This document shows, one piece after another, positions 12,231-47,396 of a stretch of 47,396 nt of DNA. Under the pieces are notes generated by a model, which did not search any database, was not told where the DNA came from, and saw nothing but the letters and a program-made list of their open reading frames with translations. Numbering within the stretch: position 1 is the stretch's first letter; every line of letters starts with the position of its first letter. The stretch comes from Arenimonas sp. SCN 70-307 (GTDB taxonomy: Bacteria > Pseudomonadota > Gammaproteobacteria > Xanthomonadales > Xanthomonadaceae). Where the stretch lies: contig NZ_MEDO01000024.1 in the NCBI RefSeq assembly GCF_001724815.1, positions 1 through 47,396 of the forward strand. Reading direction: 5' to 3'. The translations under genes were made by a program, and so were the position numbers.

Positions 12231-13673
<1,443 letters not shown>

Positions 13674-15913: not shown

Positions 15914-18151
15914 ATGACCCTTCGCGCCCTCACCGCCGCGCTGGCCCTGGCCGGCGCCAGCCTGCCTGCCGCCGCCATCACCGTGGATGGCCGCATCGAC
16001 CCGGCCGAATGGGCCGGGGCGCGCCACGTCACCGAATTCGTGCAGGTGCAGCCCATGACCGGCGGCCCCGGCAGCCTGCGCACCGAGGCCTGGATCCTGG
16101 CCACGCCGCAGGGCCTGGCCGTGGCCTTCCGAAACCACCAGCCCGCCGGCCTGCCGCGTTCGACCCAGCGCACCCGCCGCGACCAGATGGGCCAGCTCGA
16201 CCGCGTCAACCTGATGGTGGACTTCGACGGCGACGGCCGTACCGGCTACGACTTCGTGGTGGCGCTGCCCGGCGGCATCGCCGACGAGGTGATCACCAGC
16301 GAGCGCAATTTCAACGACGACTGGGACGGCCACTGGCACCACGCCACCACCCAGGACGCCGAAGGCTGGAGCGTCGAGATCCTGGTGCCCTGGCACGTGG
16401 CGCCCATGGCCCGCCCGCAGGACGGCACCCGCACCCTGGGCATCTACCTCGACCGCGTGGTGGCGCACACCGGCGAGCGCATCGCCTGGCCCAACGCCAG
16501 CTTCATGCGCCCGCGCTTCCTGTCCGAATTCGCCCGCGTCGAGGTGCCGCACTACGACCAGGCGCTGCTGGCGGTGACGCCCTACGTGGTGGGCCTGAAC
16601 GACAACGTCGCCGGCAGCAGCGACTTCGACGCCGGCGCCGACCTGTTCTGGAAGCCCAGCGGCCAGTTCCAGCTCTCGGCGACCATCAACCCCGACTTCG
16701 GCCAGGTCGAGAGCGACGACCTGGTGGTGAACTTCGGTGCCGTCGAAACCTTCTTCGGCGACAAGCGCCCGTTCTTCACGGAAAACCAGGGCCTGTTCGA
16801 CGTTCCCTTCGGCGCCGGCAACAGCCGCCTGCTCTACACGCGCCGCATCGGCGGCAATGCCGATGACGGCAGCGGCGCCGGCGACGTGGCCGCGGCGGTG
16901 AAGCTCAACGGCAGCCTCGGCCAGGTGCGCTACGGCCTGCTGGCCGCCAGCGAGAAGGGCGAGGCCGGCCGCGATTTCTTCGCGCTGCGCGCCACGCGCG
17001 ACTTCGGCGCCCACGACCTGGGCACGATGCTGACCCACGTCGAGCGGCCCTGGCTCGAACGCGAGGCTTCGGTGGCCTCGGTCGACCACCTGTGGACGCC
17101 GGACGGTTCGTGGACCCTGCGCAACCAGGCCGTGGCCTCGAAGTCCACCACCGCCGGCCTGCGCCGGAACGACCTCGGCCTGCAGTCGCGCATCGACTGG
17201 CTGATGGGCGATGGCTGGCGCCAGCAGCTCTACCTGCTGCACCTGGGCGACGAGCTCGAGCTCAACGACATCGGCTACCTCGACCGCAACAACTTCAACT
17301 ACGCGCGCTACGAACTGGCACGGCGCGAGGATGCCCCGGCCGAAGGCTCGCGCTATGCCAGCTACGAGACCCGCTGGGCCGTGTCGAACCGCACCAGCGC
17401 CAGCGGACTGCACATCGCCAATGCCGCCGCCGTGCAGCGTTACGCCGAGCTTCGCGACGGCGGTGATGAGTTCTGGGACGTGGCGATGTGGTCGGCGGGC
17501 AACGACGACCGCATCACCCGCGGCAACGGCGTGGTGCGGGTGCCGGAAAAGCTCTACGCCTTCTGGGAACGTTCGCGCCCCCAGCGCGGCGCCTGGTCGC
17601 TCGAGGGCATGGTGCGCGTGGCCGCGGAAGGCCTGGAAGGAGCCTCGAAGCCCGGCCTGGAGCTCTATTTCGAGCCGACCCTGCACCTGGGCGAGGCGCT
17701 GGCGATCGAGTTCGGCCTGGGCCTCGAGCACGAGCCGGACTGGCTGCTCTGGCGCGGCGGCAACCGCCTGGGCAGCTTCCGCGCCGACACGGCCACGGCC
17801 AACGCCAGCCTGCAGTGGCAGCTGGGCTCGCGCCAGGAACTGCGCGTGAAGCTCGAGACCATCGCGCTCGACGCGCGGCTCACCCAGGCCTGGGAAGTCG
17901 GCCCGGGCGGCCGCCCGGTGCCGGTGGCCGCGCCGGCCGACGTCACCGACTTCAGCCTCGCCAACCTGGGCTTCCAGGTGCGCTGGCGCTACGAGCTGGC
18001 GCCGCTCTCGGACCTCTACGTGGTCTACAGCCGCGGCGGCCTGGCCGAAGACGGCGTCAGCCGCTCGCTCGCCGACCTGCTCGGCGACGCCACCTCGCTG
18101 CGCGACGCCGAGCAGGTCCTGGTCAAACTCAGCTACCGCTTCGCCAACTGA
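15914..18151 (+). CDS. Secreted DUF5916-type protein with N-terminal carbohydrate-binding-like domain
   Basis: About 745 aa from the ATG at 15914. The signal peptide is MTLRALTAALALAGASLPAA then A. Residues about 25-190 look like a family 9 carbohydrate-binding-like (DOMON-like) domain (ITVDGRIDPAEWAGA), and the rest matches DUF5916 proteins: FWKPSGQFQLSATINPDFGQ, VNFGAVETFFGDKRPFFTEN and alternating beta-strands with aromatic ends through to LVKLSYRFAN, a typical outer-membrane barrel terminus (final Phe-Ala-Asn). An outer-membrane location is therefore likely. The function of this family is not established. A REP pair follows the stop. Confidence 0.85.
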   Translation: MTLRALTAALALAGASLPAAAITVDGRIDPAEWAGARHVTEFVQVQPMTGGPGSLRTEAWILATPQGLAVAFRNHQPAGLPRSTQRTRRDQMGQLDRVNLMVDFDGDGRTGYDFVVALPGGIADEVITSERNFNDDWDGHWHHATTQDAEGWSVEILVPWHVAPMARPQDGTRTLGIYLDRVVAHTGERIAWPNASFMRPRFLSEFARVEVPHYDQALLAVTPYVVGLNDNVAGSSDFDAGADLFWKPSGQFQLSATINPDFGQVESDDLVVNFGAVETFFGDKRPFFTENQGLFDVPFGAGNSRLLYTRRIGGNADDGSGAGDVAAAVKLNGSLGQVRYGLLAASEKGEAGRDFFALRATRDFGAHDLGTMLTHVERPWLEREASVASVDHLWTPDGSWTLRNQAVASKSTTAGLRRNDLGLQSRIDWLMGDGWRQQLYLLHLGDELELNDIGYLDRNNFNYARYELARREDAPAEGSRYASYETRWAVSNRTSASGLHIANAAAVQRYAELRDGGDEFWDVAMWSAGNDDRITRGNGVVRVPEKLYAFWERSRPQRGAWSLEGMVRVAAEGLEGASKPGLELYFEPTLHLGEALAIEFGLGLEHEPDWLLWRGGNRLGSFRADTATANASLQWQLGSRQELRVKLETIALDARLTQAWEVGPGGRPVPVAAPADVTDFSLANLGFQVRWRYELAPLSDLYVVYSRGGLAEDGVSRSLADLLGDATSLRDAEQVLVKLSYRFAN

Positions 18152-35523: not shown

Positions 35524-36057
35524 ATGGCCCGCGGCATCAACAAAGTGATCCTGGTTGGCAACCTCGGCAACGACCCCGAGACCCGCTACAGCCAGTCAGG
35601 CTCGGCCATCACCACCATCTCCGTCGCCACCAGCGAGAGCTGGAAGGACAAGAACGGCGAGCAGCAGGAGCGCACCGAGTGGCACCGGGTGAAGTTCTTC
35701 GGCCGCCTGGCCGAGATCGCCGGTGAGTACCTGAAGAAGGGCCGCCAGGTCTATATCGAGGGTTCGCTGCGCACCGAGAAGTACACCGACAAGAACGGCG
35801 TCGAGAAGTACGCCACCGACATCATCGCCAACGAGATGCAGATGCTCGGCGGCATGCCGGGTGGCGAGGGCGGCGAGCGCCCGGCCCGCTCCGGCGGCGG
35901 CGAGCGTTCGGCCCGTCCGTCCGGCGGTGGCCAGCGCGGCGGCGGCGATTACGGCTCCTCGCGCGGTGGCGGCGACTACGGCGGCCGCTCCGGCGGCGGT
36001 TCGGCGCCCCCGTCGCGCAACGACGACCCGTTCCCGGACGACGACATCCCGTTCTAA
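35524..36057 (+). CDS. ssb: Single-stranded DNA-binding protein
   Basis: 177 aa. The OB fold spans residues 1-110 ([60 protein letters not shown]). A Gly/Ser/Arg-rich linker follows (about 113-165, with repeated GGG and DYG), then the acidic tip DDDIPF that binds partner proteins. Essential in replication and repair. It is the last core-type gene: composition and gene style change directly after its stop codon. Confidence 0.97.
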
Positions 36058-36109
36058 TTGGAACTGGCTTCGCTTCTGTAAAGTCCTGTCTTCTTTCTTA
36101 TAGGGATCA

Positions 36110-36125
36110 AGAGGATAGGTCCTCT
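36110..36125. other. Small inverted repeat at the island's left edge
   Basis: AGAGGA (36110-36115) and TCCTCT (36120-36125) flank a 4-nt centre, between ssb and the first recombinase. The size fits a recombinase core site, but it could be chance. Confidence 0.3.
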
Positions 36126-36195
36126 CTGGGCGTAGTGACAGAGCCGCTGTGTAATACAGATTCAGAAGCAGAAATGGTGTCAAATCGCCCAGACC

Positions 36196-37446
36196 GTGTG
36201 TTGGGCGAGAGTGCACTTGGAACAGGAGTCGACGAAGCCGTGGTGCGTACGCATCGCGGTCCTGGAATCTGGAGAGAGGCTCCCCTTGCTCGTCAGGGGA
36301 GCCTTTGGCTTGCCGGACGAAAAGGTCACCGAGTTTGCACTGGTCAGGCTGCGCTCAAGGGGTAGGGCAGCTAGGACCATCTCCGCCTCTGTGCGGGCAG
36401 TCGGTGAGGCGCTGGATCACCTGCGTGCACGTGGAATCTGCCTTGAGGAGCGGATCGCCAAGGGGACCTATCTTTCACACGAGGAACTCCAGGCATTCGC
36501 CACTTCCTGCAAGCGTGGGCGCAAGAAGCGCTCAGTGCATCGAGATCACGCTGCGAACAAGTATTCTCGCTTCCTTGATTACGTAGCCTGGCTCGCCGCT
36601 CCGGTGATTGCACGGGCTTCTAGTGAAGCAGCCTTTGCCAAGGCACAGAGGGACCTCAAGAGGTTTCAGGTGAGGGCAAGTGCCGTTGCGCCCCCTTCCG
36701 AGGCCGCGATCCAGAGTCCGGACAGTGCGGGTGGACTCACTCCTGACCTTAGAGATCTCCTGCTTCAGGTTATTCGCCCGGAAAGCGAGCGAAACCCTTG
36801 GGCCGACGCGGCACTTCGCAGCAGAAACTACGCCATGGTGATGCTGGCTTACGAGCTGGGGCCTCGGGCGGGTGACGTGCTGAGCCTGAAAGTCAGGGAC
36901 CTCAGTCTGAATCGACGCCCTGCCACCGTCACGTTTCATCGGCGACACGATGACCCTGAGGATCCAAGAGCTGACCAGCCAACGCTGAAAACGAAGCCGC
37001 GTGTCCTCGAAATAAGCGACAGGCTAGCCCTTTCCATTGAGACATGGTTGGACAAGTTTCGCGCAGACAGGGTTCGCTTCCCTGATGCGCGACGTCATCC
37101 CTTTGTCTTCGTGAACAATCGTGGCAACCCGATCAGCCAGCGCGGTTTTCAACTCGTCTACGAGCGCCTGAGAGAGGCTTTCCCTGAGTTTGGGCGGCTT
37201 GTCTCCCACTCCTTGCGGCACGACTGGAACGAGCGTTGGGTTGATCTCGCCGAAAAGGAGTCCTATGACCCTTGGGGGACTCAACGGCAACAATGTTATG
37301 CGATGGGATGGTCTGAAAGATCCAATATGCCAGCGAGATATGCGCGTCGAGCCATCGCAGAGGCAGCTAACCGACGGATCTCTAGAATGAACGACGCGTC
37401 CGAGAATAGGGGGAATCGTTCGCAGGGGTCTGGAGGTGCTGAATGA
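36196..37446 (+). CDS. Tyrosine recombinase/integrase, first of three
   Basis: 416 aa. The C-terminal catalytic domain has a full set of residues: Arg224 in LGPRAGDVLSL, Lys265 or Lys267 in LKTKPRVLEI, His338 and Arg341 in SHSLRHDWN, Trp372 in the GWSERS segment (Trp can replace the second His) and nucleophile Tyr382 in PARYARRAI. The N-terminal 170 residues are the DNA-binding arm and core domain. The start is uncertain: GTG at 36196 or GTG at 36211. Its stop overlaps the next recombinase ATG by 4 bases. Probably the active integration/excision enzyme of the island. Confidence 0.88.
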   Translation: MCWARVHLEQESTKPWCVRIAVLESGERLPLLVRGAFGLPDEKVTEFALVRLRSRGRAARTISASVRAVGEALDHLRARGICLEERIAKGTYLSHEELQAFATSCKRGRKKRSVHRDHAANKYSRFLDYVAWLAAPVIARASSEAAFAKAQRDLKRFQVRASAVAPPSEAAIQSPDSAGGLTPDLRDLLLQVIRPESERNPWADAALRSRNYAMVMLAYELGPRAGDVLSLKVRDLSLNRRPATVTFHRRHDDPEDPRADQPTLKTKPRVLEISDRLALSIETWLDKFRADRVRFPDARRHPFVFVNNRGNPISQRGFQLVYERLREAFPEFGRLVSHSLRHDWNERWVDLAEKESYDPWGTQRQQCYAMGWSERSNMPARYARRAIAEAANRRISRMNDASENRGNRSQGSGGAE

Positions 37447-39023
37447 CGAGGAGATCAGGCAAGACTAGTGGGGCATCTGATTACGTCGACTACGGGATTC
37501 CCACTTTGCTGGAAACCCGGGATGGTCTAAGCGTAAAGACGTCGTCCGAGCGTTGGTTGCTCGGGCTAAACACCAGTATCAACTGGGAACGTTTCGAACC
37601 TATTCCGCAAAGAATTGTTCTTCCGGTTAAGGCCTATCTGTGCCATTGCCTGCAAATTGGTTCTCCGCGGAGTGCGGGCAACGATTTTGCAAGGCTGCTT
37701 GCTGGGTTCTCAAGGATCGAGCGCGACGCGCTAAGGTCGCTCGCAGCGGGCGAACTCGGGATGAGTCTGTTTCACGCTTTCAAGGCGGCTCTTGAGAATG
37801 ATGAATCTGTAACCTCCGACAGTTGTAAAGACTGCCTTCAATCATTCAGAAGGTGGTATGTCTGGTGTGCCGACGTCGAGTTGCCCAACTTCCTGGATTC
37901 GGTTGCGTTGACGCTTGAGCAGCGGACTATCGGGGGGTCGGCAAAAGGCCAAGCGGTCCTAAGCAACGATCCTCATGAAGGGCCAATTTCCTTCGTTGAG
38001 GATGTCCGAGTTGAGACCGCAATAGCTAGGGATTTTGACCATCTCGATCGTATGCAAACGGCGGACCTGCAGTCGCTCGTTGCCGTTCTTCTTAGCAAGT
38101 CATTCGGACTCTATGGTGCCCATCTTCAGCTAATCAATGAGGCGGACTATCAGGTTGAGGTTCTTCCAGATGGCCGGGCAGTTCACTGGCTGCATGTTCC
38201 TCGCCTGAAGAAACGTGGGGTTAGGGCAGTTGTGGGATCTAGGCGGCGGCGGCTTAGCGATCGATTGGCTGCCTCGATTAACTTACTCAAACAAAGAAAC
38301 GCCGCCGACTGTGGGAGGAGTTCACACATTCAAAGTCTGGGCGGCGAAGTTCCTCTGTTCTTGACCAGGAAGCCACGGGAGCGATTTATAGGCACTACGC
38401 TTGAGGTTGATGCTTATCGCTGGCGACTTGCGTATTTCGTGGATTCCATGAGCCGATTCGCAAAAAGGCATGGGTTGAACTTTCGTTTGGCTCCACGGCG
38501 ATTGCGATATACGTTCGCGACGCGACTCGTTGATGAGGGGTGCTCGCCACTTGAGTTGGCAGATGCCCTAGACCATACGGATCTTCAGCACGTGATGGTC
38601 TACTTTAATTCCAGGGGTGGGGTGGTGCGTCAGCTGGATGCGGCAATGGCCCTCCGTCTTGCGCCTCTGGCGAACGCATTCCTGGGTCGAATCGTTCCCA
38701 GACCTCCCTTTTCCGCAGGAAGTGACGCGGTTTCGAGCGTCATTAAGTTTCGGGGCGGTTCATCCGACCTTCGCGACGTCGGGCATTGTTCGATTTCCAC
38801 ATGTGGTCTAGACGCCCCTCTTGCCTGTTACACCTGTCCCAAGTTTGAGCCATGGGTTGATGGCCCGCATGGGTTTGTTCTGGATGAGCTTGTCAAAGAT
38901 CGAAAAAGGAAAGTTGAACTTGGGTTTGATGGCCGAATCGTCCAAGTCCACGATAGAACGATTCTGGCTGTTGCTGATGTGGTCAGAAAGACCGCGGGCG
39001 CCGGTTATCAAGACGAAGGCTAG
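37443..39023 (+). CDS. Tyrosine recombinase-like protein, second of three, incomplete active site
   Basis: 526 aa. Tyrosine recombinase fold in the C-terminal half, but the first catalytic Arg is replaced (FGLYGAHLQL, Tyr224 where GLR is expected) and the box II His is Arg (PRRLRYTFATRLVDEG, Arg352-x-x-Arg355). Lys256/257, His378 and Tyr387 (DHTDLQHVMVYF) are present. A C-terminal cysteine set (HCSISTCG and CYTCPKF, Cys449/454/462/465) suggests zinc binding, as in recombinases that work in multi-gene sets such as Tn554-like or RIT elements. It may be an accessory subunit. Translationally coupled to the first gene. Confidence 0.82.
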   Translation: MTRRSGKTSGASDYVDYGIPTLLETRDGLSVKTSSERWLLGLNTSINWERFEPIPQRIVLPVKAYLCHCLQIGSPRSAGNDFARLLAGFSRIERDALRSLAAGELGMSLFHAFKAALENDESVTSDSCKDCLQSFRRWYVWCADVELPNFLDSVALTLEQRTIGGSAKGQAVLSNDPHEGPISFVEDVRVETAIARDFDHLDRMQTADLQSLVAVLLSKSFGLYGAHLQLINEADYQVEVLPDGRAVHWLHVPRLKKRGVRAVVGSRRRRLSDRLAASINLLKQRNAADCGRSSHIQSLGGEVPLFLTRKPRERFIGTTLEVDAYRWRLAYFVDSMSRFAKRHGLNFRLAPRRLRYTFATRLVDEGCSPLELADALDHTDLQHVMVYFNSRGGVVRQLDAAMALRLAPLANAFLGRIVPRPPFSAGSDAVSSVIKFRGGSSDLRDVGHCSISTCGLDAPLACYTCPKFEPWVDGPHGFVLDELVKDRKRKVELGFDGRIVQVHDRTILAVADVVRKTAGAGYQDEG

Positions 39024-39031
39024 TAGCTCAA

Positions 39032-41080
39032 ATGGCTAAATTCCTAACCTCGCAGGAAAGGCGGTCCAAGCTTGCATGCGAGGAATTCTGCGCAGAGATG
39101 CGGTCGCTCAATCCATACGCGGATGTTGATTGGGAGCAATCCTCATGGGTCGTCGGAAAGGCCCGGAGGGCTAGTTCTCGTGTGAATGAGAGAATTCATT
39201 TCACGACCCACATCTATACGTCGTCATCTCCGGGGTCCCTCGGTCCGGCGTTCCCTCGTGTCTTTGGGGATTTCGTTCGTGCGATAGTCGTCGATAAGGC
39301 ATTAAGTGGGACAAAGCGACCTACGGCGTCTGCTCAGATGGTGCTCGTCCGCGCCCTTCGATACCTGTACGAAGAGCTTAAGAGGAGTAGTGGCGCAGAT
39401 GAAGTCAGTCCGTGGCGGCTCGTTCGTGCCCACTTCGATAACGCTGTGCAAGAACTTCTTTCTCGCGAGAAGCCCTACACTAGTTACCGGGTGGCAAACT
39501 ATCTGCAGTATGTGGCCGCGAAGGTCGATTCCCTGGGGCTCGCCCCCGTTGCTATGGTCTGGAAGCACGGGGTTGAGCGGCCTGAGGGGGCTGGAGGGCT
39601 GAAGGCGAATCGTGTTGGGAAGAGATTTCGGGAGCGGCGCGAGCGCCTGCTTTTGTCCGACGAAGTTCTCTATGCAGTTGCCGCGCTATCTAACGCCGAA
39701 GATTTGGATGATCGGGACCTGGTTTGTCAACGGGTTGTGGATCTTCTGTTCTGCTGCGGATTCAGAGTGAACGAGGCTCTGGCCCTATTCCGAGATTTGA
39801 TGGTGGAAGAGGCGGTAAGGGATGATCTTGGTCAGCTGGCGCTGGGTGCGGACGGCAACCCAGTGTCGCCCCATTTCGGTCTGAGATATGTTCCAGAAAA
39901 GGGTGGAAGAGAGGCTTCGAGAATCAAATGGGTTCCAACCGAGCTTGTTCCGATTGCGCGCCGAGCCGTCACTGACCTTCTGAGAGTAACGTCGCCATAT
40001 GCTGATCGGGCGCGGTTCGCATTTGAAAATCCGGGTCGCGCCCAGTTCGGTGAGCCGTGGGATTCCTTGCCCTCTGATGCCTTGGTTTCGCTTCAGGATG
40101 TCGCTGGGATGCTCGGTTTTCGCAAGGCCGACACCGCGAGGATATGGATTGAGTCAAACGTTAGGGCTGGAGCGGCTTCGACTCGGGGCGAGAGTTGCAT
40201 GAAGGGTGATGTTGAGGGGGCGGTGTCGCGATTGATTCACGGAGCAAGTATCAGTTTTGGGGGAGATCTTGGCGAGGCTCGAGTGCACGAGTTGCTCGCC
40301 GTTGTGCCAAGGAATTATTTCCATAGCAGGAAGGCTTCAATTAACGGGACGGCAGTATCTGTCACCGATCAGAACATCAGCGATTATCTTTGCGGTCGGT
40401 CCAGCAGTAGCGGCTCAGCCAAGTCGATCTTCGAGCGGCGTGGCTTAAGGGACTCCAGTGGCGCGATAATCAAAATTCGGACTCATCAATTCCGTCATTT
40501 CCTTGATACCGTCGCCGCGGAGGGCGGGGTGCCCGAGCTCGTTCGGGCGCGTTGGATGGGGCGGAAGGACCTTTCACAGAACAGTGCCTACGATCATGAG
40601 ACTGGGATATCTCTCGCGCGGAAGGTGCGTCAGCGGCTTGTTGACGGCACGGTTGAAGGCCCGATTGGTGACTATGTCAGAGCGATCCCGGATCCGGTGG
40701 CTCGAGGAGATCTCGCGTCAGATCTGATTCGAGGCATTCATAGGACGCAGCTTGGACGATGCTTCCATGACTGGGCGGCTTCCCCGTGTCCTGAGCATGA
40801 GGCTTGCTGGGGATGTCTTGAGCACTTAGTCGTCAAGGCAGACTCAATGGAGATGGCAGAGGCGGAGCGTCAGCTTTTGGAAACGAAGCAGGCCTTGGCT
40901 GCTGCTGAAATTCAGAAGAGTGAAGGCACGTATGGTGCCGGAAACTGGGAGAAGGCGCACCGGAGGAAGCTGATTAAGTTGGAGCGAATTCTGGCGGTCC
41001 ACAAAGACGCGTCTGTACCTGACGGCACGCTCGTGCATCTTGCGGCTTCGAGCGTCGGGGACGGTTCTCCCAATGAATAA
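39032..41080 (+). CDS. Large tyrosine recombinase with C-terminal His/Cys cluster, third of three
   Basis: 682 aa, far longer than typical integrases. Catalytic residues are complete: Arg245 (CCGFRVNEALAL), Lys299 (SRIKWVP), His485/Arg488 (RTHQFRHFLDT), Trp508 (RARWMGRKDL) and Tyr520 (NSAYDHETG). An insertion of about 130 residues between Lys and box II contains a helix-turn-helix-like stretch (SLQDVAGMLGFRKADTARIW). The C-terminus has a probable zinc cluster Cys577-x-His579, Cys586, His589, Cys592, Cys595 and then a coiled coil. Size and cluster resemble the large integrases of gamma-mobile-trio (GmtZ-type) modules; that match is from memory and unverified. Starts 8 bases after the previous stop. 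Confidence 0.85.
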   Translation: MAKFLTSQERRSKLACEEFCAEMRSLNPYADVDWEQSSWVVGKARRASSRVNERIHFTTHIYTSSSPGSLGPAFPRVFGDFVRAIVVDKALSGTKRPTASAQMVLVRALRYLYEELKRSSGADEVSPWRLVRAHFDNAVQELLSREKPYTSYRVANYLQYVAAKVDSLGLAPVAMVWKHGVERPEGAGGLKANRVGKRFRERRERLLLSDEVLYAVAALSNAEDLDDRDLVCQRVVDLLFCCGFRVNEALALFRDLMVEEAVRDDLGQLALGADGNPVSPHFGLRYVPEKGGREASRIKWVPTELVPIARRAVTDLLRVTSPYADRARFAFENPGRAQFGEPWDSLPSDALVSLQDVAGMLGFRKADTARIWIESNVRAGAASTRGESCMKGDVEGAVSRLIHGASISFGGDLGEARVHELLAVVPRNYFHSRKASINGTAVSVTDQNISDYLCGRSSSSGSAKSIFERRGLRDSSGAIIKIRTHQFRHFLDTVAAEGGVPELVRARWMGRKDLSQNSAYDHETGISLARKVRQRLVDGTVEGPIGDYVRAIPDPVARGDLASDLIRGIHRTQLGRCFHDWAASPCPEHEACWGCLEHLVVKADSMEMAEAERQLLETKQALAAAEIQKSEGTYGAGNWEKAHRRKLIKLERILAVHKDASVPDGTLVHLAASSVGDGSPNE

Positions 41081-41522
41081 TTCACGGCGACGTGCTCGCA
41101 AGTTCCTTACGGAAGACGGCATTGTTAGGGTAGTGCGTGCAATAGAGTCGTTGTCTGTCACGACTGCGCTGACCTGGGAAGACGTTAAGCGCCTAGCGAG
41201 CGAGCATGCTGGTGATGGCTATGTTTGGACGCGCCAGGCGCTTGAGAAGCATCGTCAGATCAAGGATGCCTATCTGTCCCATGAGTCAGCGCGCAGAAGG
41301 CACGCAAAGAGCGGGAATCGGACAAGTGGGCGTTTGTCGGAGCCACAAAGGCTCGCTCGGCTCGAGGCAGAGGTTGAGGCTCTTCGTGCGACACTAAATC
41401 AATACGACCAGAGGTTTGCGACGTATCTCGCAAATGCCGTAGCGCACGGGATGACCGTGCAGCAATTGTCGGCACCTCTGCGACCCCCATCCAGAGGGGG
41501 TGGTAACTCTGATGCGACCTGA
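41073..41522 (+). CDS. Small coiled-coil protein of the recombinase module
   Basis: 149 aa from the ATG at 41073, overlapping the third recombinase by 8 bases. The N-terminal half looks like a DNA-binding fold (FLTEDGIVRVVRAIESL, TWEDVKRLASEHAG, VWTRQALEKHRQIKDAYLSH), and residues about 100-130 form a coiled coil (LARLEAEVEALRATLNQYDQ). In position and size it corresponds to TnpC of Tn554 or to the small GmtX-type gene of gamma-mobile-trio modules. Likely an accessory factor in recombination; no enzyme motif is seen. Confidence 0.72.
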   Translation: MNNSRRRARKFLTEDGIVRVVRAIESLSVTTALTWEDVKRLASEHAGDGYVWTRQALEKHRQIKDAYLSHESARRRHAKSGNRTSGRLSEPQRLARLEAEVEALRATLNQYDQRFATYLANAVAHGMTVQQLSAPLRPPSRGGGNSDAT

Positions 41523-41605: not shown

Positions 41606-41854
41606 TCATTTCCTTCGCAGTCTGAGCACCAGCGTCATGGCCTTCTTCGGCGATATCCCGAGCTTCTCGGCGAGCAAAAAGTACTCCATTACGTCCAGCC
41701 GTCGCCCTCCCTGCTCGATGGCGGACAGGCGCTGCTGAGGCCAGCCCAGGGCGTCGCACAGCTCGGTTTGTGTAATGCCGAGGGCTTTGCGGGTCCGGCG
41801 GAGCTCGGTGACCAGTTCGCGGTACTCCTTGGCGTAAATGGTCTTCTTGGGCAT
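41606..41854 (-). CDS. XRE-family helix-turn-helix regulator
   Basis: 82 aa. Cro/C1-type HTH: LRRTRKALGITQTELCDALG then WPQQRLSAIEQGGRRLDVME. Ends with a basic RLRRK tail. It is transcribed towards the recombinase module and divergently from the broken gene at 41970. It could be a control protein for the island or, by proximity, for the restriction-modification genes. No toxin partner is seen. Confidence 0.88.
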   Translation of the reverse strand: MPKKTIYAKEYRELVTELRRTRKALGITQTELCDALGWPQQRLSAIEQGGRRLDVMEYFLLAEKLGISPKKAMTLVLRLRRK

Positions 41855-42425: not shown

Positions 42426-43151
42426 ATGCCAATCGAACAATCAGAACTCAACAGACTGCTCGAGGAGTCGATCAGCGACCGACGTAAAGAGCCCGAGTTC
42501 TTCCGCGCACTGCTGGACGCCACCGTTTATGCCCATGTCCCCCTTAACGACCAGAGCGGGCGAATTCGATTCATCCAATTCAACGGGCCCGACGGAGAGC
42601 TTCTGCTGCCCTTCTTCTCTGACCCCGGAAAATCCGAGGCGGCCGCGCGAGGTAATGCTCGTACTGTGGCGATCAATGGCCGGCTCTTCTTGGAGAGCAC
42701 ACTAGGAGCCACTCTTATCCTCAATCCGAATAACCATTGGTGCAAGCTTTACCCAGAGGAGATCCGTGTTCTGCTCAGCACTGGGCAAGTTGCAGTTCTG
42801 GAAGCAGACAATTACGAGGAACGCACGCAGATCGCCGTCGCGAACCCCGAAAATGTTCCCGAGCTACTGATTAGGGGCGTCAGTGAGATTCTGGCCACGC
42901 TCCCCGATGTGGAAATTGCATATCTCGTCGACATGCGTTTCGACCCGCATCTGGACACCCCAAACTGGGTGTTAGCCGTTGGTACGCCCAAGTCGACGAG
43001 CACGCGGATCTGCCGTGCCATCCTGGCCGAACTCCAGTCCCGGGGAACGCTCACGGACAAACCGCTCAGCTTGATGCCTTTGCCGATCGAGGATCCGGTG
43101 CCTGATTGGGCTGCGGAACTAAAACCCGAGCCCATCTATCGCCGAGGCTAA
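42426..43151 (+). CDS. SseB-like (enhanced serine sensitivity) family protein
   Basis: 241 aa. The N-terminal domain matches SseB: NRLLEESISDRRKEPEFFRA and LLDATVYAHVPLND, then IRFIQFNGPDGELLLPFFSD and AVLEADNYEERTQIAVANPE. The C-terminal part (PDVEIAYLVDMRFD, NWVLAVGTPKST) fits the SseB C-terminal domain. The biochemical role of SseB is unclear; family members occur near toxins, secretion systems and in islands. No signal peptide. It is the first intact gene after the broken gene; 284 bp without a recognisable gene separate it from hsdM. Confidence 0.8.
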   Translation: MPIEQSELNRLLEESISDRRKEPEFFRALLDATVYAHVPLNDQSGRIRFIQFNGPDGELLLPFFSDPGKSEAAARGNARTVAINGRLFLESTLGATLILNPNNHWCKLYPEEIRVLLSTGQVAVLEADNYEERTQIAVANPENVPELLIRGVSEILATLPDVEIAYLVDMRFDPHLDTPNWVLAVGTPKSTSTRICRAILAELQSRGTLTDKPLSLMPLPIEDPVPDWAAELKPEPIYRRG

Positions 43152-43435: not shown

Positions 43436-45280
43436 ATGAACCAACAAAGCCTCTCCGCCTTCATCTGGTCGGTGGCCGACCTGCTTCGGGGTGACTACAA
43501 GCCCCACGAATACGGAAAGGTAATCCTGCCCTTCACGGTACTGCGTCGCCTGGACTGCGTCCTCGCACCGACCAAGGCGAAGGTTCTGAAGGAGCTGGAG
43601 GCGAAGACCAAGGCGGGGGTGAGCTCGGACCCGTTCCTTAAGAGAGCTTCCGGCCAGAGCTTCTACAACAGCTCCGACCTTGACCTGTCCAAGCTGCTCG
43701 GCGACCAGGACCACATCAAGCAGAACCTTTACGCCTACCTGCAGGGGTTCTCCCCGGAAGCCAGGGACATCTTCGAGCGGTACGACTTCGCCACCCAGAT
43801 CGAGCGCCTGGCCAAGGCCAACCTGCTCTACCTCGTGACCGAGAAGTTCGCCAACATCGATCTGCACCCTGGGTCGGTCGACAACGCCCAGATGGGCCAT
43901 GTCTTCGAGGAGTTGATCCGCCGGTTCGCCGAGCTCTCGAACGAGACCGCTGGTGAGCATTTCACTCCGCGAGAAGTCATCAAGCTGATGGTCAACCTCG
44001 TCTTCATCGAGGATGACGACGTGCTGACACCCGGCAACGCGGTCGTGCGCACCATTTACGACCCAACGGCTGGAACCGGCGGAATGCTGTCCGTTGCCGC
44101 GGAGCACCTTGCCGAGCACAACCCCGCTGCCCGACTGACCCTTCATGGGCAGGAGCTCAACGACGAGTCCTACGCCATCTGCAAGGCGGACATGCTCATC
44201 CGCGGCCAGGCGGTGGAGAACATCGTCGCCGGTAACACCCTGAGCGAGGACGGGTTCCCCAAGAAGACCTTCGACTACATGCTGGCCAACCCGCCGTTCG
44301 GCGTGGAGTGGAAGAAGGTCGAGAAGGTCGTCCGGCAGGAGCATGAGCAGAAGGGCTTCGACGGGCGCTTCGGGCCTGGTCTGCCGCGCGTCTCCGACGG
44401 CTCGATGCTCTTCTTGCTCCATCTCGTGGCCAAAATGACGCCGGTGGTCGATGGCAAGGGCGGCAGCCGCTTCGGCATCGTACTCAACGGCTCGCCGCTG
44501 TTCACGGGCGGAGCTGGCAGCGGTGAGAGCGAGATCCGCCGTTACCTGCTGGAGAACGACCTGGTGGAGGCGATCATCGCCCTGCCGACGGACATGTTCT
44601 ACAACACCGGCATTGCCACCTATGTCTGGGTGGTCTCGAACAAGAAGCCACCCGCCCGCCGGGGCTGGGTGCAGCTGATCGACGGCTCGCACTTCTGGCA
44701 GAAAATGCGCAAGAGCCTTGGCAGCAAGCGCAAAGAGATGCGCGACGAGCACATCTCCTTGGTTACCCGTCTGTTCGGCGACTTTGCCGAAGCCGACCTG
44801 GTCATGCTGCTCGACGCATCCGGCAAAGAGGTGGGTCGCGATGTTCTGGCCAAGGACGCTGTCACCCCGGCTGGGCCGGAGGGCGGCAAGGCCAAGCGGG
44901 TGCCGCTGGCCCGCCACTTCCGCAATGAGGCTTTCGGATACACGGCCATTACCTTCGAGCGTCCCCTGCGCGACGAGGTCGGTAATGTGGTCCTGTTCGA
45001 GAAAGGGAAGCAGAAGGGAAAGCCGCAGCCAGACAGCAGCCTGCGCGACTCCGAGAACGTGCCGCTCAACGAGGACATCGGTGCTTACTTCAAGCGAGAG
45101 GTCCTCCCTCACGCCCCGGATGCGTGGATCGACGAGACCAAAAGCAAGGTGGGGTACGAGATCCCGTTCAACCGACATTTCTATGTGTTTGAGCCGCCGC
45201 GACCGCTTGAGGAGATTGATGCCGATCTGAGGGCGGTGTCTTCGAATATTTTGCGGGTGCTCGGCGAGATGAGCGCATGA
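43436..45280 (+). CDS. hsdM: Type I restriction-modification methylase subunit
   Basis: 614 aa. N6-adenine methyltransferase: N-terminal helical HsdM domain (residues 1-140, [20 protein letters not shown]), SAM-binding DPTAGTGG (209-216) preceded by [13 protein letters not shown], and catalytic NPPFG (285-289). Modifies host DNA in complex with HsdS. The 284-bp spacer upstream (43152-43435) carries G-rich tracts and presumably its promoter; nothing else is recognisable there. The stop overlaps the hsdS ATG by 4 bases. The GC content is higher than in the recombinase module, hinting at a different origin. Confidence 0.95.
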
Positions 45281-46602
45281 AGATGAAAGGTTACGCCGAT
45301 TACGAGGAATGCCGTCTTCCGTGGCTCGGTCGTTACCCCAGGCATTGGTCGCTAACAAAGACAAAGCGGGTCTGTAGCTTCACTACCGGGTGGACGCCGC
45401 CAACGGGAGATTCGGCAGCGTACGAAGGGGATTGCCCTTGGGCCAATATTTCGGACTTGGGGCAGCGAGTGATCCTCAATACTGCTAAGTCGATCAGTGC
45501 CAAGGCGGCAGAAGATCATGGTCTGGAGCTGATTCCGGCCGGCAGCTTGATGTTTAGCTTCAAGCTCTCGGTTGGCCAAGTGGCGTTTGCTGGTAAGCCG
45601 ATGTTCTCTAACGAGGCTATCGCGTCCTTCCGGGAGTCGGCTGATCTCGATTTGAGATTTTCGTACTACGCATTTCCGATTTTTCTTGTCGAGAATGCGG
45701 CCGAGAACATTTATGGCGCAAAGCTGCTAAACCAGTTCCTAATCAGGGAAGCGATATTCCCGCTGCCGCCAAAGCCTGAGCAAAGGCTCATAGCCGACTT
45801 CCTTGACCGAGAGGCCGCGAAAATAGACGCCCTCATCGACGAGCAGGAGCGCCTGCTCGCGCTGCTGGCGGAGAAGCGCCAGGCGGTCATCTCCCATGCA
45901 GTGACCAAGGGGCTAAATCCCGATGCACCGATGAAGGACTCCGGCGTTGCGTGGATGGGGCAGATCCCGGCGCATTGGCGAGTCGCGCCGTTGGCGCGAG
46001 TTTCCCGCGAGAGATGCGATGGTCCTTTTGGCTCAGGGATAAAGTCCTCACACTACACAGACCAAGGCGCACTTGTGGTCAGGCTTCAAAACATCCGCGC
46101 GGGTCGATTCAGGATGGGCGAGCCTGTGTATCTTGATCAGGAGTACTTTGAGTCCGAGCTGAAAGGCCATGCAGTTTTGAACGGCGATGTTTTGGTCGCC
46201 GGACTTGGTGACGACAACAACTTACTCGGTAGGGCTTGCGTTGCTCCGGCTAACCTCGGCCCGGCATTGGTGAAGGCAGATTGCTTTCGATTCCGCCTCC
46301 TTGATGACATGTGTCCTGAGTTCATCGCACATCAACTCTGTGCAGGCGCAGCATTCGATGCAGGCCAGTTGGCAACTGGTACAACAAGATCGAGGATTCC
46401 ATTGAGTGCGATGGCGGGCCGAATGGTTGCCTTTCCGCCAATGGATGAACAGAAAGCAATTAAAGTCCATATCGCAGGTTTGCTAAAGAAGTCGGATGAT
46501 CTTTGTTGTATGGCTGAGGCCGCCATTGCTCTTCTGCGTGAGCGCCGCGCAGCTCTAATCGCTACGACGGTTACCGGCCAAGTTGATGTGCGGGGAGTGT
46601 AG
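45277..46602 (+). CDS. hsdS: Type I restriction-modification specificity subunit
   Basis: 441 aa. Two target-recognition domains: the first begins [20 protein letters not shown] and the second [20 protein letters not shown], each followed by a conserved helix region ([40 protein letters not shown]). The central linker [20 protein letters not shown] is the usual coiled coil. It defines the DNA target of HsdM and HsdR. Lower GC in the recognition domains than in the linker fits domain swapping. hsdR is not in the window. Confidence 0.94.
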
Positions 46603-46715: not shown

Positions 46716-47396
46716 GTGAGTAGCGACAATCGCGAAGATCCATGGATGCGGCTTGTGCCGGCGCTCTTTCGTGCGCTGGCGGATCCTGCATCCCGCGACG
46801 CGCTGCCTCGACCTGTCACCGGTTCCCTTGAAGAAGCCTGTGGTACCTGGGGTGCGTTGCACTACGCGTTCAACTGCTTCTTGGGGTGGCGTGATGTTCC
46901 TAAGGGCCTCGTGTGGTGGTACCGAGCTGGCAAGCCCGTCGAGGGGTCAGAGGTCCTCGCTCTAATCCGAGAGGTTTGGGGCCGGGACGACCTGATCGAC
47001 TACTACGCGGCTTGGGCTTGGAAGCCGGCATGCCAGTACTGGATGGTTCCCCAGGAGTTCGCTCCTCTGGACGGCCCCTCGCCGACAGAGCTTGCGAAAA
47101 ATTCTCACTGGCCTGACGAAGGCTGGTGGCGGGCCTTTATTCGCCGTGGAGCGGTCCACCACCACGACCCCTTTTATGGCGGGTCTGACGCCCTCCATCT
47201 CTCGGCGCATACGGGCCGAGAAGTCGGTGTCCCGTCCCAGGCCCCCGTCATCCACCTGGATGCCCCCGGCCGCCGCGGAGTGCTCATTACCGAGGGCCTG
47301 CAGCACTGGCTGGCCGATCTCGAGGCCCTGGGCCAAACGCTGCCCTCCCTGGGTGATCGGTCCTGGCGCATCGAGGTCTTTGATCGGCGCGTGGGG
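46716..47396 (+). CDS. Unrecognised gene, cut by the window edge
   Basis: Open for 227 codons to the window end. Possible starts are GTG 46716 (SSDNREDPWMRLVPALFRAL) or ATG 46746. The product is Trp-rich and acidic-basic mixed (YYAAWAWKPACQYW, PDEGWWRAFIRRGAVHHH), with the C-terminal visible part VIHLDAPGRRGVLITEGLQH. No family was recognised. Codon use is consistent with coding, and GC rises towards the edge. It follows hsdS by 113 bases, so it may be a cargo gene in the defence region. Confidence 0.6.
   Translation, partial: MSSDNREDPWMRLVPALFRALADPASRDALPRPVTGSLEEACGTWGALHYAFNCFLGWRDVPKGLVWWYRAGKPVEGSEVLALIREVWGRDDLIDYYAAWAWKPACQYWMVPQEFAPLDGPSPTELAKNSHWPDEGWWRAFIRRGAVHHHDPFYGGSDALHLSAHTGREVGVPSQAPVIHLDAPGRRGVLITEGLQHWLADLEALGQTLPSLGDRSWRIEVFDRRVG

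Follow-up and report, generated by a model that had tools for sequence, protein, structure and literature searches.

What kind of element is the four-gene block that stands directly 3' of ssb in Arenimonas sp. SCN 70-307? The stretch studied, called the window below, is the whole of positions 1-47,396 of contig NZ_MEDO01000024.1 (47,396 nucleotides), and the block, or module, occupies positions 36058..41522. A previous sequence-only reading had reported there three tyrosine-recombinase genes and a 149-aa gene, overlapping or nearly touching, and this was confirmed from the reading frames, the protein profiles and the alignments. The module is very probably a ginABCD operon that marks the end of a GInt nearest to ssb, a judgement made by setting the sequence against the descriptions of published GInts. 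What can be read directly from the DNA is the gene unit, its place behind ssb, the paired ends, the gin-free ssb sites of the same genus and the modules found behind ssb elsewhere. The genes concerned are as follows.

35524..36057, plus strand: ssb, host gene (Pfam SSB, 9.1e-40), targeted for integration at its 3' end
36196..37446, plus strand: ginA, tyrosine recombinase of 416 aa with a GTG start (PF00589, 5.6e-14) and the complete active site R-K-H-R-W-Y
37443..39023, plus strand: ginB, tyrosine recombinase of 526 aa (NF041502, 4.3e-73), with Arg-1 replaced by Tyr, His-1 replaced by Arg, and a C-terminal Cys cluster
39032..41080, plus strand: ginC, large tyrosine recombinase of 682 aa, with R-K-H-R-R-Y and a C-terminal Cys/His cluster
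41073..41522, plus strand: ginD, small protein of 149 aa, with aligned homologues and an AlphaFold2 model

All four gin genes lie on the plus strand directly 3' of ssb, overlap or abut, and have open frames. They lie on DNA with 58% G+C vs. 71% upstream, the G+C content of the module itself being 0.562 vs. 0.714 for the upstream DNA. For ginB, the NF041502 score is 246.7 bits, which is under the curated cut-off of 350; the same model matches 12 of 12 family members.

GInts (ginABCD; Tn6571-type) are mobile islands described in 2017 by Bardaji et al. (PMC5385486); their excision and integration require all four gin genes, and the 3' ends of ssb genes are a repeated target (PMC5385486). Defence-carrying GInt islands of Escherichia coli were named Tn6571-family, the search asking for one or more integrases with similarity to those of published GInts (PMC10121019), and Tn6571 and Tn6488, both with ginABCD, were placed under Tn554 (PMC8865565). 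The Arenimonas module resembles GInts in its four overlapping genes, their order and their kind, in its imperfect direct repeats (ca. 10-17 nt as published, 12 nt here), in the ssb 3' end used as target, in its restriction-modification (R-M) cargo and in its wide spread, and differs in that the Arg-poor enzyme is GinB, while GinC has the first Arg. Three recombinases with a small accessory gene had been put forward as a new combination; it is already known as the ginABCD operon of GInts (PMC5385486), and a striking recombinase cluster is now placed in a published element type.

A contig scan gave 134 confirmed relatives, and the counts below rest on the 80 that were kept. The nearest one (52%) belongs to a metagenome-assembled genome (MAG) of Silanimonas, of the host's family, and among the others are Alpha- and Betaproteobacteria and, going by the titles of MAGs, Deltaproteobacteria and Acidobacteriota. 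The order ginA-ginB-ginC was found in 68 of these 80 relatives, and the full order A-B-C-D in 59. The earlier idea that these recombinase genes work together as a single mobile unit is supported. The 12 relatives not counted as A-B-C include loci cut by the contig and others in which the ginC reading frame is broken (L146, for example, still shows ginA and ginB); nine relatives have A-B-C and no recognised ginD. Upstream of ginA, ssb is present in 46 of the 57 relatives with at least 1 kb of sequence on that side, and lies at most 236 nt away in 37 of the 46. On a single contig of Tepidimonas fonticaldi, two gin operons (L098 and L099) with identical GinB were observed ca. 22 kb apart, only the first being preceded by ssb.

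As for plasmids, GinC matched 92 records and GinB 69, and seven stretches were inspected. Five of them show a plasmid ssb followed by A-B-C and a small gene (two from Pseudomonas aeruginosa, two from E. coli and one from Paraburkholderia), and two have no ssb neighbour. In the Paraburkholderia plasmid, a group II intron reverse transcriptase gene is located between ssb and ginA; one E. coli plasmid has avs4 next after ginD, and one P. aeruginosa plasmid carries one hypothetical gene and then a type ISP restriction gene past the module.

Among 199 genomes near the host (host included), GinC relatives occur in eight, the other seven being outside the host genus; one of them, G110, is the Silanimonas sequence mentioned above, with an identical GinB. 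A class-level draw gave a GinC match in 8 of 369 genomes, two of them strong besides the host's own. The other same-genus genomes had no GinC match in the 199-genome scan, and a core sequence shared by relatives, considered as the alternative to an insertion, is ruled out by these GinC-free genomes and by their gin-free ssb loci.

Both ends of the element could be recognised, the left one in the window and the right one on another contig (C22) of the same genome.

36047..36058, plus strand: attL core TCCCGTTCTAAT, codons of the SSB C-terminal tip (..I-P-F-stop)
36077..36083, plus strand: left-end motif TGTAAAG, 19 nt past the ssb stop
C22, 8229-8235: inverted right-end motif CTTTACA, followed by 16 nt, TCCCGTTCTGAT and rfbB
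C22, 8252-8263: attR repeat TCCCGTTCTGAT, just before rfbB, an imperfect copy of the attL core

The direct repeat formed by attL and attR is 12 nt long, with 11 identical positions, and is split over the two contigs. C22 was reached by searching the host genome with the rfbB flank of a sister species whose ssb site is empty and runs on into rfbB; a second rfbB-like stretch is present on contig C14, where the right-end pattern was looked for and not found. Among 22 same-genus ssb loci (L045-L048, fragments or second copies, being left out), the tip is recognisable in 16 and in none of the other six, and rfbB lies at most 400 bp past ssb in nine of the 16 readable ends and not in the other seven. 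Together with the ssb genes standing in front of the relatives, these gin-free sites support the insertion behind ssb that had been supposed from the letters of the window.

The left ends were compared in 52 rows, i.e. the window, 46 genome loci and five plasmid loci. The ssb open reading frame before ginA ends with the SSB tip (...PF-stop, mostly DDDIPF) in 51 of them, the exception being L072, whose 'ssb' has no such tip at its end. A loose TGTAA-like motif, a form for which there is no control, was seen in 44 left ends and starts at +19 to +21 after the stop in 41; the stricter GTAA[AC] at +15 to +32 was found in 31 of the 52 left ends vs. none of the 16 empty ssb ends of the genus. Concerning the right end, the pattern derived from C22 was matched seven times in the 543 kb that follow the gin operons at 87 loci (of which L015 and L068 are one sequence), with no match on the reverse strand and 0.05 expected in shuffles. 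Since the pattern was designed from C22, C22 itself is no independent match.

Several side observations concern the ends. Just past the ssb stop, the sister genome G022 (L023 / L055) carries TAATTGGAA, and TGA stands there in 14 of the 15 other readable same-genus ends. Because TAATTGGAA is common to this empty site and to the occupied site of the window, the exact element boundary is uncertain by a few nucleotides; in G022, it could be the scar of an excised element. At L081 (ca. 12816-12880) and L122 (ca. 17264-17330), the right-end pattern is immediately followed by a second left-end-like TGTAAA motif, which suggests that one site holds several elements in tandem. In 27 of the 52 left ends, at +41 to +110 past the ssb stop, a run of T precedes a GTTTAC-like motif, and many left ends have, by eye, a hairpin ahead of it, the window's own end not clearly so; it is as if ssb received from the element a terminator with inverted GTAAAC motifs on either side. 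Finally, isolated stretches coding only for the last 22-24 SSB residues were noticed at L045 (G019:C216:14096-14167) and L047 (G026:C4:3-68). The former, 100% identical to the end of ssb in the window, could be a piece of an ssb gene or a former attachment site; the latter starts right at the edge of its contig and is perhaps an ssb that was split.

Some results weigh against the GInt identification. GinC keeps its first Arg in all 82 aligned rows, contrary to a remark in PMC5385486 by which this residue is missing in GinC; the remark is not part of the definition of GInts, which is by operon and structure, and does not enter the later search criterion either. No ssb stands ahead of ginA in 11 of the 57 relatives with sufficient upstream sequence. 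The two ends are on two contigs, and the middle, the total length and the join are a matter of inference: if both parts belong, the island comprises at least 11.3 kb in the window and at least 8.3 kb on C22, the stretch between them being unassembled. The C22 part is also less deviant in its G+C content (0.628).

The active sites were analysed in alignments of 78 GinA, 81 GinB and 82 GinC rows, in which one sequence appears twice, as L015 and L068. The rows come from those of the 80 relatives in which A and B were found, with proteins above 350, 430 or 600 aa, together with the window and no more than 13 loci collected earlier; L021, whose second gene has no BLAST match, was excluded. GinA has a full set of residues (R 78/78, K 78/78, H 77/78, R 78/78, W 74/78, Y 77/78). 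In GinC, R-1, K, R-2 and Y are present in 82 of 82 rows and H-1 in 81, and the His-2 position is Arg in all 82; the first Arg, R245 in the window, is R in every row, L132 included. As for GinB, all 81 rows have K and R-2, 80 have H-2, 80 have Y, none has His-1, and 63 keep Arg-1, which is replaced by Asn in 15 and by Tyr in three (window included). The window's GinB is without the first R and H, but R355 and Y387 are present. Both GinB and GinC have conserved Cys clusters toward the C terminus.

The 18 GinB rows without Arg-1 (one a duplicate) belong to Alpha-, Beta- and Gammaproteobacteria, and the loss corresponds to one to three changes on the tree, a quick one with some long branches. Compensation within GinB was considered as well: all 18 rows carry Arg at the His-1 place, yet with one to three changes the loss is close to a single event, so that there is no evidence of repeated compensation.

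These residues bear on whether the module could be decayed or immobile, with the catalytic residues of ginB lost and the island a fixed remnant. The absence of Arg-1 and His-1 from GinB and the lack of a GinC match in other genomes of the host genus would fit such a remnant, but the four gin frames are open and overlap or abut, both element ends are recognisable, His-1 is missing from every GinB row and the loss of Arg-1 is spread over three proteobacterial classes. What GinB lacks is therefore not a recent decay, and we hold a remnant to be improbable.

The same residues, along with host range, separate the element from the strand-biased circularizing integrative elements (SEs; intA-tfp-intB-srap), of which it might otherwise be a member or a close branch. 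The published SE order (a complete, an incomplete and a large complete recombinase, then a small protein) matches the gin order (PMC10214605), and the likeness extends to two working recombinases, one of them large, an incomplete one in second place, a small coiled-coil auxiliary protein and inverted motifs at both ends. However, SEs were found only in Gammaproteobacteria (PMC10214605) and their Tfp is without the RHRY residues, whereas gin relatives also occur in Alpha- and Betaproteobacteria and beyond, and GinB retains Arg-2 and, in 80 of 81 rows, Tyr. The two are set apart here by description, and SEs are kept separate from GInts by sequence in the same source (PMC10214605). Membership of the SEs thus appears highly improbable, and the GInt identification is retained.

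By analogy with the published genetics of other GInts, GinA, GinB, GinC and GinD would together join attL and attR and release a circle, to be inserted in turn where the conserved C terminus of SSB (D-D-D-I-P-F-stop) is encoded. Insertion in these codons would leave ssb intact and offer the same target in distant bacteria and on plasmids, which would explain the choice made by distant GInts and their use of plasmid ssb genes. Strand cutting would be the task of GinA, with its complete active site, and of GinC, whose site is nearly complete, while GinB, in which catalytic residues are missing, would mainly bind DNA and complete the complex. GinD would be an accessory factor and may help integration like TnpC of Tn554.

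It is conceivable, though rather unlikely in our view, that the three recombinases are not interchangeable copies and follow a fixed division of labour between active sites: GinA would be the complete enzyme, GinC a complete one with Arg at His-2 and possibly a helix-turn-helix in its catalytic domain, and GinB a partner in which His-1 is never present and from which an old lineage has also lost Arg-1, conserved otherwise. If so, the complex could exchange one strand only, or cut one partner site only. This would produce a copy-out-like behaviour, in which no empty site is left by circularisation, as has been reported for SEs and some GInts. Which recombinase acts on which strand is made directly testable by the three conserved signatures.

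GinC has ca. 90 extra residues that separate the catalytic Lys from the HxxR box (elements 351-403). Pfam weakly places HTH_17 at 342-389 of the homologue L115, inside this extra part; HTH_17 is matched in 3 of 40 GinC members (best 0.0015), its position having been checked in L115 alone, and a Pfam search for it in the extra stretch of the window's GinC gave no match. Judged from these matches, a helix-turn-helix (HTH) may be inserted in the catalytic domain of GinC.

The AlphaFold2 model of GinD has a mean pLDDT (predicted local distance difference test) of 87, with helices at 14-26, 35-45, 54-58, 61-86 and 90-124, which we read as short, HTH-like N-terminal helices predicted to precede two long coiled-coil helices. 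Against the PDB, the best match of the model has an E value of 0.77, and no fold is claimed. Among 45 GinD proteins, DUF6262 matches three (best 0.003) and the coiled-coil family ZapB nine (best 3.7e-5).

The layout had also been said to recall Tn554, RIT and gamma-mobile-trio modules. For the first two, what stands is an analogy with Tn554 proper and with RIT. Tn554 (TnpA, TnpB, TnpC) likewise combines several recombinases with a small protein, but it has two recombinases, with no counterpart of the incomplete one, whereas there are three here. RIT elements share the three adjacent recombinase genes, but are described as having three genes and 34-bp terminal inverted repeats, whereas a fourth gene is present here (59/80 relatives); the inverted motifs noted at the gin element ends are short ones, no systematic search for 34-bp repeats having been made. 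A gamma-mobile-trio element, likewise mobile and with many genes for defence and offence (PMC12715929), would agree with the defence cargo, but its GmtY model has no match in the module. The recomb_GmtY model (NF040693) gave five weak places genome-wide, none in the window and none above the cut-off, with weak matches also in 14 of 14 control genomes, and no GMT-named model was matched by the four gin proteins at E values up to 1. NF040692 ('recomb_assoc'), a possible GMT model, had no match in the genome. We give this origin next to no credence, and the module is treated further as that of a GInt.

Within this known element type, the SSB-tip codons as target, the TGTAAA end motifs, the three active-site signatures and the possible HTH of GinC are refinements that may be new. 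None of the four was found in the GInt literature examined, supplements and most subscription papers lying outside it, and they are not claimed to be unpublished. The SSB-tip codons, the TGTAAA motifs and the right-end pattern provide landmarks for the automatic delimiting of GInt islands and their cargo.

The cargo seen on the two parts of the island is listed below.

41606..41854, minus strand: HTH_3 regulator-like protein (PF01381, 2.9e-12)
42426..43151, plus strand: SseB-domain protein with N- and C-terminal domains (PF07179, 5.9e-11; PF14581, 8e-7)
43436..45280, plus strand: HsdM, type I modification subunit (PF02384, 6.8e-58; PF12161, 5.5e-29; PADLOC MTase_I, 1.7e-268)
45277..46602, plus strand: HsdS, type I specificity subunit (PF01420, 5.1e-13; PADLOC Specificity_I, 6.4e-93)
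46716..47396, plus strand: open frame cut by the contig end, at least 227 aa, of no clear family (best Pfam DUF6409, 0.016, under the cut-off)
C22: IS21 transposase and IstB
C22: SBF-family transporter, low-molecular-weight phosphatase family protein, ArsR-type regulator and FMN reductase
C22, 7316-7831 and 671-1468, minus strand: two proteins without a family match

The type I modification and specificity genes bear out the expectation of defence-type cargo on the island. A genome-wide search for HSDR_N (HsdR) gave no match, and the gap between the contigs may hide one. The two C22 proteins (L054, G000) of 171 and 265 aa had no Pfam or PADLOC match at E 0.01. The SBF-family transporter and its neighbours on C22 are, in our reading, probably an arsenic-resistance cluster (Acr3, ArsC, ArsR, ArsH). 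It had been suggested that the rest of the island could hold new systems; what is visible of its cargo (genes for type I modification and specificity, SseB-domain, HTH, IS21 and arsenic-type genes) is ordinary. As a last observation, an SseB-domain protein stands as island cargo beside the type I R-M locus.

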